Shown piece after piece: positions 10,596-15,541 of a stretch of 36,856 nucleotides of DNA (within the stretch, counting starts at the first letter, position 1; each line of letters begins with the position of its first letter). Location: positions 1-36,856 of IMG/VR virus record IMGVR_UViG_3300025137_000112, one strand, 5' to 3'. Both the position numbers and the translations under genes were made by a program. This DNA comes from a virus. The notes under the pieces are model-generated. The model ran no database searches and had not been told where the DNA came from. It saw only the letters and a program-made list of their open reading frames with translations.

Positions 10596-10659
10596 CATTC
10601 TATACAAATTATAGAAAAAAAGTAAGCACATTTGATATTCTTGCCTCTGTCTAGGGTTA

Positions 10660-10689
10660 GAGAGAATAACTTGTTCTCTCAGAGAATAA
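10660..10689. repeat. AGAGAATAA direct repeat with inverted repeat
   Basis: GAGAGAA (10660-10666) pairs with TTCTCTC (10674-10680). AGAGAATAA occurs at 10661-10669 and 10681-10689, exactly 20 bases apart, i.e. two helical turns. The arrangement suits a dimeric regulator binding side by side between two divergent units. Confidence 0.5.
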
Positions 10690-10830
10690 GTGAGAGAGTG
10701 AAGTATTTACAATAAACTATTGATTTAAGTTAATTATTTAAGAGAGAGAGTCAAGAGAACGAGATATGAATAATTTTTTTTATTTTTTTTTATTTTGTGA
10801 ATATGGTTCTCTTATAGTAAACTAACTCTT

Positions 10831-10914
10831 CCGTGGTTCGTGGGCATTGATTCGGCCTCCTTTCGACGAATCTGTTCTTTCCTCCTTTCTTCTAACATAG
10901 CCCACTTACCACGG
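10831..10914 (+). ncRNA. GC-rich folded element with long-range stem (candidate structured RNA or DNA site)
   Basis: CCGTGG (10831-10836) pairs with CCACGG (10909-10914), and TGGGC (10841-10845) with GCCCA (10900-10904), separated by a symmetric 4x4 internal loop. Inside, GATTCG (10849-10854) pairs with CGAATC (10867-10872). GGGCATTGA is repeated at 10842 and 10913. It stands out as GC-rich in very AT-rich DNA and ends 3 bases before the -35 box at 10918. Since it is upstream of that promoter, it is either read from another promoter or acts as DNA. Confidence 0.5.
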
Positions 10915-10917
10915 GCA

Positions 10918-10945
10918 TTGACATTTATATAAAAATACCTATATT
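10918..10945 (+). promoter_or_regulatory. Strong sigma70-type promoter of the rightward small-gene operon
   Basis: TTGACA (10918-10923), 16 bases, TATATT (10940-10945), 25 bases before the ATG at 10971. It shares TTGACATT and CCTATATT with the promoter at 8817. Confidence 0.75.
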
Positions 10946-10970
10946 AAAACCCATAGAAAGGCAGAATATC

Positions 10971-11120
10971 ATGGAACTTAAAGAACTATCAATCGAAGAA
11001 CTAAAGCAAGTTATACTTAATATTTCTAAGGAAATAGAAAGAAGAACAATTAGAGTACCTATAGACGAAGATAAAGAAAAAGTCGATAATACAAGACAAA
11101 ATTTATTTTTAAAAGGCTAA
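10971..11120 (+). CDS. Small charged hypothetical protein (49 residues)
   Basis: MELKELSIEELKQVILNISK followed by KEIERRTIRVP and a Lys/Asp-rich end: one amphipathic helix. GAAAGGCAG lies about 7 bases before the ATG, and a consensus promoter is directly upstream, so this is the first gene of the operon. Its stop overlaps the next start (TAATG). Function unknown. Confidence 0.7.
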   Translation: MELKELSIEELKQVILNISKEIERRTIRVPIDEDKEKVDNTRQNLFLKG

Positions 11121-12029: not shown

Positions 12030-12279
12030 AGGTCTAGGAATAGATAGTAAAAATTTAGCAGAAGCATTAAAAATATGGTCATCAATTAGAGAGCACGCTA
12101 GGGAAATGACCACCATTAGTGATAATTGGGCGAGAATACACCGTAGTCTTCCACATGATGTTGCCCCTGTTCAACGAGAAGTAGAACTAAAAGAATTTTA
12201 TCATCATGCAGGCATGACTATAGGAAATCTTTCAACAGAAATATTAGAAAAAATATTAGAGGAAATAGCAGATGTATAA
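11998..12279 (+). CDS. Small hypothetical protein
   Basis: 93 residues, mostly helical (LAEALKIWSSIREHAREM, VELKEFYHHAGMTIG). GGGAG lies 7 bases before the ATG, which supports this start despite the 32-base overlap with the upstream gene. It overlaps the methyltransferase start by 8 bases. Function not recognised. Confidence 0.68.
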   Translation: MIIPDIRPTAKGLGIDSKNLAEALKIWSSIREHAREMTTISDNWARIHRSLPHDVAPVQREVELKEFYHHAGMTIGNLSTEILEKILEEIADV

Positions 12280-12910
12280 ATATTTAGATATTCCTGGTTG
12301 GTTTAATATGCACGACGCATTGATGAACCTAGTCAAATACTGTGAAGATGGTGATGACATAGTAGAAATAGGGTGTTTCGCAGGACGATCAACAAGGTTT
12401 CTCTGTGACTCACTAGAACTGAGCGGAAAGCCTAAAGTCACAGTTCACGTCATAGATACCTTTGAAGGATCGGGCCAAGAACATTTAGATGTCAATTTAA
12501 ACAGCATGTATGACGATTTTATGAGGAATTTAGAAGACCATTTAGAATGTGGGAGAGTTCAATTAAACGTCAACAAGTCTGATAATCAAAATATCCTTGA
12601 TTCTTTTGAAGAAAAGTCAGTTTTTGGGGTAATTGTCGACGGAGCACATACCTATGACGCAGTCAAAGAGGATGTGATTAATTGGTGGCCAAAGGTAAAG
12701 GAAGGTGGAATCATGGTTGGTGATGATGTATCTTTAGAGTCTGTAAAGCAAGCTGCTTTGGATGGATTTGCGTACCATGGAATTGACACATACAATATTT
12801 GTAAGGGAGTTGAGGGATGGTTCTCTCAGATAAAGAACGACAAAAACAAACAGATAGCCAACAGCCTGAAGTTAATCCCCGGGAAAAACTCTATGAAGTT
12901 AAATGGCTAG
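12272..12910 (+). CDS. Class I SAM-dependent methyltransferase (Methyltransf_24/TylF-like)
   Basis: 212 residues. Motif I is IVEIGCFAGRSTRFLCDSL (about 30-48), with an acidic residue after the second strand (VIDTFEGS, D62) and the post-motif GVIVDGAHTYDAVKEDV (about 119-135). The DGxHxYxxVxxD pattern is typical of macrocin-O-methyltransferase-like enzymes that act on sugars or small molecules, often with a metal. GGIMVGDD follows. The substrate is unknown; it could modify a host or virion glycan. AGAGGAAA precedes the ATG. Confidence 0.82.
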   Translation: MYKYLDIPGWFNMHDALMNLVKYCEDGDDIVEIGCFAGRSTRFLCDSLELSGKPKVTVHVIDTFEGSGQEHLDVNLNSMYDDFMRNLEDHLECGRVQLNVNKSDNQNILDSFEEKSVFGVIVDGAHTYDAVKEDVINWWPKVKEGGIMVGDDVSLESVKQAALDGFAYHGIDTYNICKGVEGWFSQIKNDKNKQIANSLKLIPGKNSMKLNG

Positions 12911-13189: not shown

Positions 13190-13369
13190 ATGAAAAAATT
13201 TGAACTAAATCATCAATCATTATCCCCTAGTGAGCTTAGAAATTTACTAATAGCTTCACTACAAAATCAATTATCAATGGAAAGAGGTAAGGACAAGTGT
13301 CTCTGTGGCGAGGATGAGCCTGCGAAAGAAGAAAGAGAACAAGAATCTAATCTAGCTGTGGGCGGTTAA
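13190..13369 (+). CDS. Small hypothetical protein, possibly leaderless
   Basis: 59 residues: MKKFELNHQSLSPSELRNLL, then an amphipathic helix, CLCGEDEPA and an acidic end. No ribosome binding site is visible, but an extended -10 promoter sits about 11 bases upstream. The CxC pair could bind metal or form a small Zn site. The 3' end overlaps the convergent gene by 23 bases. Confidence 0.55.
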   Translation: MKKFELNHQSLSPSELRNLLIASLQNQLSMERGKDKCLCGEDEPAKEEREQESNLAVGG

Positions 13370-13571
13370 TATTAGGCTCAATTAGAAAAGCTTTTTCTAG
13401 CATTGAGTCTACCTGACTGAGCATACTATCCCAATCATCTGCTAAATACCCACTTACATTCCCGTCGTTGAAAGTCACTAAGACTTTATCAACTGTATCT
13501 TTCAATACCGGATCGTACATTCGTTGTCTTTGGACAGCGAGGACGATTTTTGTTTTTATATCGTTCAACAT
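13347..13571 (-). CDS. Small hypothetical protein
   Basis: 74 residues (MLNDIKTKIVLAVQRQRMYD..., VLVTFNDGNVSGYLADDWDSML). AGGACAACATT lies before the ATG. The ATG itself sits in a perfect 13-base palindrome (13566-13578), and an 11-bp hairpin (13588-13626) lies in the leader, so its expression may be controlled by RNA structure. No family recognised. Confidence 0.62.
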   Translation of the reverse strand: MLNDIKTKIVLAVQRQRMYDPVLKDTVDKVLVTFNDGNVSGYLADDWDSMLSQVDSMLEKAFLIEPNINRPQLD

Positions 13572-13874
13572 AATGTTGTCCTATTGTAAAAGCGGGAGTT
13601 CGAAACAGGGAAATGCTCCCGCTCTTATGGATATTTATATAGATTTGTGGGTAAATTGATACCAGAAAGTCAAGCTTAAATTTTAAGTCAAGGGGAGGGA
13701 TCAGCGCCCCTTGACCGTTCTTGCGAGAGCAAGATAGATCTCATCCATCTGCTTGGGAGGTAGACTTTAGAGATATTACTGATTCTCGCTATCAGTAATC
13801 AAGAGAAAGGATATGGGACTCGATTATCTTGCGGAGATAAAACCATACCCCTTCTCCTCATTACTGAGGGACAG
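13572..13874 (-). ncRNA. Hairpin-rich noncoding tract (candidate structured RNA)
   Basis: 303 bases without a gene. Perfect stems: GTCAAGGGG/CCCCTTGAC (13687-13715), TCTTGC-GAGA-GCAAGA with a GNRA-type loop (13719-13734), ATTACTGAT/ATCAGTAAT (13775-13799), TTATCT/AGATAA (13824-13840) nested in TATGG/CCATA (13812-13847), and CCTCA/TGAGG (13856-13869). The 11-bp leader hairpin and the hairpin at 13870 flank it. A series of separate stems in AT-rich DNA points to a structured transcript. The strand is uncertain: the GNRA loop appears when it is read on the plus strand; the neighbouring genes are minus. Confidence 0.55.
13588..13626 (-). promoter_or_regulatory. Strong 11-bp hairpin in the leader of the 74-residue gene (terminator or attenuator)
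   Basis: On the minus strand AAGAGCGGGAG pairs with CTCCCGCTTTT (one G-U), with a 17-base loop. The stem ends in a T run, so it could be an intrinsic terminator for the upstream leftward transcript or an attenuator. The next gene starts 17 bases further on. Confidence 0.6.
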
Positions 13875-13884
13875 TTATACTGTC
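13870..13884. terminator. Hairpin over the stop codon of the RHH-like gene
   Basis: GACAGT-TAT-ACTGTC, a perfect 6-bp inverted repeat that contains the TAA stop of the leftward gene. It could be an operator for that DNA-binding protein, an mRNA 3' hairpin, or part of the hairpin tract. Confidence 0.4.
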
Positions 13885-14027
13885 TTTCGATGTTCTTTCT
13901 TCCATTCTTTATCAACAAGTTGAGCTACAACTCCTGATATTTTCCTGTCTTTGCCCGCTAAATTTTTTAACTTAGCATGTGTTTCTACTCTCACGATAAT
14001 AGATTTGTACTTACTTATGTCGGTCAT
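13875..14027 (-). CDS. Small ribbon-helix-helix-like DNA-binding protein
   Basis: 50 residues: MTDISKYKSIIVRVETHAKL, then KNLAGKDRKISGVVAQLVDK and EWKKEH. A short beta strand (SIIVRV) followed by two helices is the layout of Arc/MetJ-type RHH repressors, which bind DNA as dimers through the strand. The start overlaps the previous stop as ATGA. It is probably a transcription regulator; candidate targets include the inverted repeats at 13160-13184 and 13870-13884. Confidence 0.6.
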   Translation of the reverse strand: MTDISKYKSIIVRVETHAKLKNLAGKDRKISGVVAQLVDKEWKKEHRKTV

Positions 14028-15051: not shown

Positions 15052-15081
15052 ATTATATAATAACTCCTACTTAAATGTCAA
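15052..15081 (-). promoter_or_regulatory. Sigma70-type promoter for the ParB-like gene
   Basis: Minus strand TTGACA (15076-15081) with TATAAT (15052-15057, 18-base spacer) or TATATA (15054-15059, 16-base spacer). The -35 lies in the last codons of the cyclotransferase-like gene. It starts TTGACATT like the other phage promoters. Confidence 0.65.
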
Positions 15082-15541
15082 GCCTTGTTGCAGAATAATT
15101 AACTGCTTCTTCCAAAGGTTGAGTAGGCAAATCGCAATCAATGTAGCCTCTGACGATAGTTTCCAAGTAAGATTCTGAAGGAGGATAAACTATATTCTTA
15201 TCCACCATGGAGTAGAACATAATTCTTTGAGGCACAAACCTATCAAGTTTATCGCTCCAATTATTATAATATTTTTTTATATACAGATTTGGGTAGCCCT
15301 CATACCTATCAAGAGATCTTTCACACTCCTCTGTTATTGTAAATAATGCACCTAATACTGACTTATCTTTGGACTGTTGCACATCTGCAACACTTCTAAA
15401 AACTAGTTCATACTCTGGTAATTCAAAAGTATCTACATACTCTGATTTGGGGCACCTAATTTTCATATGCTGATGATTCATGTTTGAACCATAAGCAAAG
15501 TAATACTTTATTTCTTTTTCTTTTTGCTTTCTATTAGCCAT
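15071..15541 (-). CDS. Gamma-glutamylcyclotransferase-like (GGCT/AIG2) protein
   Basis: 156 residues. FAYGSNMN (15-22) is the substrate loop of the GGCT fold. VLGALFTIT (62-70) and LDRYEGYPNLY (77-87) follow, with E81 as the catalytic glutamate. Such enzymes release 5-oxoproline from gamma-glutamyl amines or amides. In published analyses of amidoligase systems, GGCT-like and class II amidotransferase proteins accompany amidoligases, so this gene may work with 6129-8293 although it is 7 kb away and on the other strand. It overlaps the SNF2-like gene by 34 bases. Confidence 0.83.
   Translation of the reverse strand: MANRKQKEKEIKYYFAYGSNMNHQHMKIRCPKSEYVDTFELPEYELVFRSVADVQQSKDKSVLGALFTITEECERSLDRYEGYPNLYIKKYYNNWSDKLDRFVPQRIMFYSMVDKNIVYPPSESYLETIVRGYIDCDLPTQPLEEAVNYSATRLDI

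Follow-up and report, generated by a model that had tools for sequence, protein, structure and literature searches.

A candidate pseudoknotted and bistable RNA domain conserved between two genes of a leftward phage operon

In trp-type attenuation and in ermC-type leaders, two mutually exclusive helices compete and a ribosome covers one of the strands. SAM-II, preQ1 and c-di-GMP-II are pseudoknotted riboswitches. The RNAs HK022 put and EAR are involved in antitermination, put being of phage origin, and the CcsR or ‘cuckoo’ type comprises anti-Shine-Dalgarno small RNAs of Alphaproteobacteria. ToxI, the RNA of a type III toxin-antitoxin system, is small and pseudoknotted and is also known from phages. 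GOLLD and ROOL likewise occur in a phage context. They are large, ornate RNAs (PMC12286853).

The principal element described here, termed E1, lies in a phage operon and is reminiscent of these systems to differing degrees. Similar to the translation-coupled attenuators, E1 has exclusive helices, one strand of which could be covered by a ribosome. Unlike in the trp and ermC types, that ribosome would be finishing a full-length upstream gene, with the stop codon in or beside the switching strand, and E1 has neither a leader peptide nor a fixed downstream gene and instead contains a predicted pseudoknotted core and invariant loops. The compact pseudoknot, conserved unpaired bases and competing helix resemble those of SAM-II, preQ1 and c-di-GMP-II, from which E1 differs in having no Rfam model match and no metabolic gene and in being confined to phages. 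As in put and EAR, E1 would be a structured nascent RNA within an operon, in a phage context shared with put; however, it is located near the operon end and appears to differ in architecture. An invariant C-rich CCUCC loop recalls the CcsR/‘cuckoo’ RNAs, whereas E1 is single, larger, pseudoknotted and placed within an operon, and shows no enrichment of targets among the phage’s own genes. Like ToxI, E1 is a small pseudoknotted phage RNA, but it is present in single copy, without tandem repeats and without a recognised downstream endoribonuclease gene. GOLLD and ROOL are, like E1, structured RNAs with no assigned function (PMC12286853); E1 is several-fold smaller, and it has no Rfam model match.

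The window, which is the whole 36,856-nucleotide stretch analysed, is a 36.9-kb IMG/VR virus record of an uncultured marine phage. The terminase, SNF2-type helicase and DNA polymerase of the window have their nearest matches, at 42–64% identity, in HTVC023P-type marine phages (023Pt_psg01, HTVC023P and HTVC027P) and in DSL-LC04, from a lake. The hairpin-rich tract is situated in a leftward operon with the gene order helicase, gamma-glutamyl cyclotransferase, ParB-like, orf73, orf50, tract and orf74, after which orf74 faces rightward genes. The gamma-glutamyl cyclotransferase-like gene of this operon (15071-15541, minus strand) matches PHROG 2520 with an E value of 4e-25, and a methyltransferase-like gene (12272-12910, plus strand; Methyltransf_24, E 9e-19) faces the operon end and is kept in most relatives. 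The tract is bounded by the stop of one short ORF and the start of another:

13875..14027, minus strand: orf50, a 50-aa ribbon-helix-helix-like protein, with its stop codon just before arm1
13347..13571, minus strand: orf74, a 74-aa protein behind E2, predicted to fold as beta-beta-beta-alpha, with no close solved fold

The model of orf50 is helix-helix with weak matches to ribbon-helix-helix folds, and an Arc-like PHROG was matched by 4 of 20 orf50 members; a sequence search of solved structures returned no match for orf50. The orf74 protein of the window has no family match, and fold comparison gave a strong match for neither protein.

A sequence-only reading had described the tract as a gene-free interval carrying a single string of consecutive perfect stems. 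An ORF check of the window identified no convincing gene within the tract, although the last ~10 bases of the interval as then drawn are the end of the 50-aa gene. The stems are present as inverted repeats (13792-13816/13843-13867, 13775-13783/13791-13799, 13687-13695/13707-13715 and 13591-13598/13616-13623). Folding of both strands, the check proposed at the time, gave a 311-nt stretch that outfolds 100 of 100 dinucleotide shuffles on either strand, with a z-score of -5.7 for the minus strand and a weaker one of -4.3 for the plus strand. The stems do not form one string, however, but belong to two separate elements of the minus strand, E1 (13867-13687) and E2 (13664-13579), with hairpins of unequal standing. 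Judged from the base pairing, the tract is an RNA structure of the minus strand, and this strand is assigned because the conserved helices contain wobble pairs that read as G-U on the minus strand but would read as A-C on the plus, and because both flanking genes run in the same direction; the stronger fold z-score lends further support.

Comparisons with described families agree with the earlier statements that the tract is not a tRNA and belongs to no recognised class. ARAGORN detected no tRNA or tmRNA, Rfam 15 gave no match at the gathering score in the window and five relatives, and permissive Rfam E-value searches yielded chance-level matches only. A literature search covering few subscription journals found nothing on noncoding RNA in these phages. 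The RNA family of E1 thus appears to be new; ribosome-driven helix switching is a known principle. The parts of E1 are as follows:

13687..13867, minus strand: E1, the whole structured RNA (P1, then the core of P2/P3/P4 with P-alt, then P5), 181 nt in the window, identified by covariation, model matches and a constant gene pair
13843..13867, minus strand: 5′ arm of P1, TCAGTAATGAGGAGAAGGGGTATGG, the first 8 nt of which are arm1 (13860-13867), competing with arm3
13792..13816, minus strand: 3′ arm of P1, the last 8 nt of which are arm2 (13792-13799), with arm1 or arm3 as partner
13830..13837, minus strand: UCUCCGCA motif in the apical hairpin of P1 (in the P5 loop in some relatives)
13775..13799, minus strand: P-alt hairpin, AUUACUGAU (13791-13799) with AUCAGUAAU (13775-13783), loop AGCGAGA, 9 bp, 100% paired
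13784..13789, minus strand: 5′ strand of P2, GCGAGA, also within the P-alt loop, with three double compensations in the contig L051 (UAGGA/UCCUA)
13723..13728, minus strand: 3′ strand of P2, UCUCGC, with compensations in L051
13770..13774, minus strand: 5′ strand of P3, AUCUC, with partner GAGAU at 13738-13742; of its five pairs, four do not vary and the other shows a compensation in L051
13753..13762, minus strand: invariant stretch UACCUCCCAA, unpaired although its last A may join P4, unchanged even in L051
13749..13753, minus strand: 5′ strand of P4, AGCAG, with partner UUGCU at 13728-13732, pseudoknotted with P3; helices differ among relatives
13687..13715, minus strand: P5 hairpin, GUCAAGGGG...CCCCUUGAC, with changes on both sides at eight of nine pairs

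P1 is composed of 8 bp, a mismatch, a further 9–16 bp and a variable apex. In its smallest form among relatives, short arms of 8+9 bp are closed by a 6-nt loop, whereas in its largest it is an extensive branched domain. P2 encloses P3 and P4, and the core is predicted to be a pseudoknot because the 5′ strand of P4 lies inside the P3 loop and its 3′ strand outside. P5 is a 9–13-bp hairpin; it is not an intrinsic terminator, its stem being followed by UUAAAA or similar with no U run, and no terminator-like site was found on the minus strand in this region of the window. Loop lengths vary among relatives by non-multiples of three, and E1 is therefore not coding.

The UCUCCGCA motif looks like the 3′ strand of P2, UCUCGCA, with a single C added. 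It has 24 copies in 356 kb of relatives, where 4.4 would be expected by chance. Of these, 23 are located in E1, occupying the P1 apex or else the P5 loop, the latter in L137 and in relatives with a short P1; the remaining copy lies ~300 nt downstream. A long form of the P1 apex replaces the UCUCCGCA hairpin in L024, L033, L041, L120 and L126, and most of these long apices carry GGCUCGGAAAGG-like and UUGCAAAA-like segments.

Two of the alignments (A2 and A4) were divided into arms by hand, and the P1 arms were taken at fixed offsets. Across 26 distinct sequences, pairing in P1, P2 and P5 combined is 98.7%, and both partners have changed at 11 pairs; the 3′ arm of P5 was chosen by complementarity, which inflates its pairing percentage, and the hairpin is also present in individual folds. 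P1 by itself is 99.5% paired. None of 500 shuffles reaches any of five measures for these helices, and slid partners are only 42–55% paired. The helices of P4 differ from relative to relative (AGCUAGA/UUUAGCU, AAACAGA/UCUGUUU, AAUCAGA/UUUGAUU and AGUGUAU/AUACAUU), and in a permutation test, in which the sequences are related, none of 20000 re-pairings between sequences does as well. Within the main group P2 hardly varies, and its covariation comes from one distant homologue; in this contig, L051, which a covariance model detected at an E value of about 2e-5, three pairs are doubly changed (UAGGA/UCCUA). P3 is nearly invariant, and its support is correspondingly thin. With P1, P4 and P5 covarying across relatives, the predicted structure is well supported, and compensatory changes in excess of both shuffled and slid controls argue that E1 is a conserved structured RNA.

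The main stems are thus preserved in relatives by compensatory change rather than lost, as expected from the earlier proposal of a structured noncoding RNA or multi-hairpin leader. The GNRA-type hairpin singled out with that proposal (TCTTGC-GAGA-GCAAGA, 13719-13734) does not hold up as a conserved part: it exists on the plus strand only, the loop being UCUC on the minus strand, and many relatives have substitutions that disrupt the stem (CUUGCUCUCGCAUG, UUAGCUCUCGCAUG). The domain-spanning GCGAGA/UCUCGC pairing, by contrast, is retained.

The 3′ end of P1 has two possible partners. Arm2, AUUACUGA, can pair with arm1, UCAGUAAU, in P1 or with arm3, AUCAGUAAU, in P-alt, all nine pairs of which are paired in 100% of cells in the 26 sequences. 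P-alt excludes the lower half of P1, and essentially all relatives retain the two helices; because both are preserved yet mutually exclusive, E1 looks bistable. On a tree built from helicase, orf50 and orf74 DNA, the variable pairs of P-alt change 3+6+6+3 = 18 times with the pair always kept, and pairs of P1 and P5 also change repeatedly (e.g. five changes from A-U to G-C at a single pair of P1), counts that recombination may inflate. The P-alt loop contains the 5′ strand of P2, such that P-alt would abolish P2 or turn it into a second pseudoknot. Predicted with pseudoknots left out, P-alt is 4.6–12.9 kcal/mol less stable than P1. With arm1 blocked, the predicted minimum fold forms P-alt in 24 of 36 sequences and still lacks it in the other 12.

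At all 37 loci tested, the stop codon of the upstream ORF is placed between -10 and +4 relative to arm1, the position being exactly +4 in 27, and the upstream ORFs at these loci come from several different families. In six loci, the window included, the stop lies 10 nt upstream of arm1, a position from which a terminating ribosome would cover arm1 in part; at the others it would cover the whole of arm1. In the window, an extra hairpin, GACAG-UAUAA-CUGUC (13875-13889, minus strand), surrounds the orf50 stop codon, and similar sequences occur in relatives with the stop 10 nt before arm1. Most loci end the upstream ORF with tandem stops, UAAUGA or UAAUAA, which argues against stop-codon readthrough. 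A mini-ORF starting from UAAUGA inside P1 was discarded, being absent in L008 and L051, and an arm1 hairpin with a GUAA loop around the stop codon, seen in many relatives and likewise absent from those two, is not claimed.

Relatives were gathered by protein scans (ParB-like, helicase) and pattern scans. About 50 IMG/VR contigs carry E1, in every case downstream of orf50 and upstream of orf74, and it is present in 44 of 44 orf74 loci and 45 of 45 orf50 loci with enough flank, contigs that largely overlap the first set. An extra 64–99-aa ORF may separate orf50 from E1. There is considerable variability on the other side: a ~36-aa ORF, other ORFs, another structured stretch or an opposite-strand gene can lie between E1 and E2, where the window has nothing, and no constant gene or terminator is found directly downstream of E1 in the relatives. 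Searches of the whole of HTVC023P and 023Pt_psg01, of the first 20 kb of HTVC027P and of 25 kb of DSL-LC04 returned no E1. GTDB genomes gave no exact match to one E1 core pattern, a search that divergent copies would escape, and a pattern match in the 424-kb contig L134 was attributed to chance.

Several further features were observed around these loci. In L028 and L037-L040, an opposite-strand gene and terminator-like hairpins have apparently been inserted between E1 and orf74. A second structured stretch between E1 and E2, termed E3 (L046:9320-9545; also in L032, L048 and L049 and partly in L025), has a fold z of -3.9, and its end is formed by a long GC stem with a T run; Rfam gave no match for E3 in L032 or L046. 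The window contains another strongly folding intergenic region (10640-10985, z -2.9), just before a 49-aa ORF (10971-11120), with a GGCCTCCTTTC segment resembling one in E3. A small protein family, LKELSIEELK...RRTIK, is encoded between E1 and E2 in many relatives (L024:9604-9711, L039:3487-3609 and others) and in the opposite operon in the window (10971-11120, plus strand), L025, L026 and L140, so that the gene has moved.

The second element, E2, is composed of two parts:

13629..13664, minus strand: E2 box, AT-rich and promoter-like (in relatives ATTTATCC-AAAAA-TATATAAATA), immediately preceding the E2 hairpin; the alignment comprises 24 distinct sequences
13590..13624, minus strand: E2 hairpin, stem AGCGGGAG/CUCCCGCU with conserved loop (A)CCCUGUUUCGA, showing two-sided stem changes

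The E2 box has one strong match in the window; as a sigma-70 promoter it was rejected, there being no consensus at the usual spacing. The hairpin lies directly before the ribosome site of orf74, and in the stem variants GCCGGAAG/CUUCCGGC, GCCAGGAG/CUCCUGGC and GAGGGGGGU/ACUCCCCUC both sides are changed with the loop largely kept. E2 is retained, with a slightly longer loop, before the diverged orf74 of L051, and therefore follows orf74. It is best read as a start signal with a 5′ hairpin, or as a translational operator, of orf74.

The reading that we favour, tentatively, places E1 in the mRNA of the leftward operon as a pseudoknotted, bistable RNA domain that acts in cis and has its state set by a terminating ribosome; the ribosome is proposed for this role because the stop codon overlaps or adjoins arm1. 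E1 would be transcribed with the operon. A ribosome terminating on the upstream gene would cover arm1, leaving arm2 to pair with arm3 in P-alt, with the P2 strand GCGAGA held in the P-alt loop. With the ribosome absent, P1 and P2 would form, the core would close and the UACCUCCCAA loop would be offered to a partner. E1 would thereby report translation of the last genes of the operon, and the P1/P2 state may act on its own transcript through stability, processing, or passage of polymerase or ribosomes downstream, with E2 serving as a separate start-and-hairpin element for orf74. Two exclusive conserved helices and a ribosome position that overlaps the switching strand, here through a stop codon at -10 to +4 of arm1 with partial cover at -10, are features shared with translation-coupled switches, but no regulated downstream signal or gene was found, and E1 is for this reason compared with such switches rather than classed as one. 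A cis switch is also weakened by the lack of a constant downstream gene to control and by relatives with terminator-like hairpins or an opposite-strand gene before orf74, and the stop-codon overlap could simply reflect a compact genome.

Because the missing constant gene weakens a classical cis switch, it is nearly as likely, though doubtful in itself, that E1 is a free-standing noncoding RNA of the phage, which either is cleaved out of the operon transcript or forms its end and which acts in trans through UACCUCCCAA, GGAU and UCUCCGCA on a protein or RNA of host or phage; P1 and P-alt would then be folding steps and the stop-codon overlap a matter of compactness. No fixed downstream gene is needed in this case. 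The short unpaired motifs are invariant while the P1 apex and P5 loop vary freely in length, UCUCCGCA shifts between these two sites but stays in E1, and UACCUCCCAA includes ACCUCC, the anti-Shine-Dalgarno core. Against this reading, no promoter of its own was recognised upstream, and the complementarity of the C-rich loop to the ribosome sites of the window’s genes is not above that of shuffled loops, with best and mean duplex energy both within the shuffled range. It also leaves the exclusive helix and the fixed stop-codon position unexplained.

An unlikely alternative is an mRNA processing or 3′-end protection site, in which P1 and P5 would be cut or resist nucleases and so separate the operon and orf74 messages. 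The long, near-perfect P1 duplex of many relatives, the location of E1 at the operon end in window-type genomes, and the further structured element with a T run after E1 in L046-type genomes would suit such a site, but P1 is short in some relatives and large and branched in others, and an invariant pseudoknot core is needless for nucleases. Distinctly unlikely is a new class of phage RNA that unites gating and action in trans, namely a pseudoknotted noncoding RNA gated by the ribosome terminating on the preceding gene, whose anti-Shine-Dalgarno-like UACCUCCCAA loop would then act on host or phage translation. A small-molecule riboswitch, with the P2/P3/P4 core as aptamer and P1/P-alt as switching platform, is improbable: the compact core of ~65 nt is pseudoknotted, has invariant unpaired bases and is enclosed by a helix competing with another, but downstream genes vary, none in common pointing to a ligand, the element is restricted to one phage group, and no Rfam riboswitch matches. 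Quite improbable is an RNA that alters RNA polymerase to read through terminators, like HK022 put or EAR; E1 would be a structured nascent RNA in an operon, and some relatives have terminator-like hairpins downstream, yet only one to three short genes follow, orf74 seems to have its own start signal in E2, and the window has nothing between E1 and E2. That the structure works as DNA (an origin, packaging site or recombination joint) is highly improbable, since the swapping of flanking ORFs on both sides of E1 between relatives, as at a recombination joint, is outweighed by the strand asymmetry of the wobble pairs, the invariant single-stranded motifs and the co-directional genes, which indicate RNA of one strand.

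Structured RNAs of ocean dsDNA phages have hardly been described, and E1 is present in every checkable relative in this phage group. The comparison yields precise base-pair predictions (P1 versus P-alt, P2, and P3/P4), and a synthetic RNA is enough to test them even though the phage is uncultured. If the proposed switch is real, E1 would be an RNA that senses the termination of translation of a full gene by means of a stop codon in or next to a switching helix.
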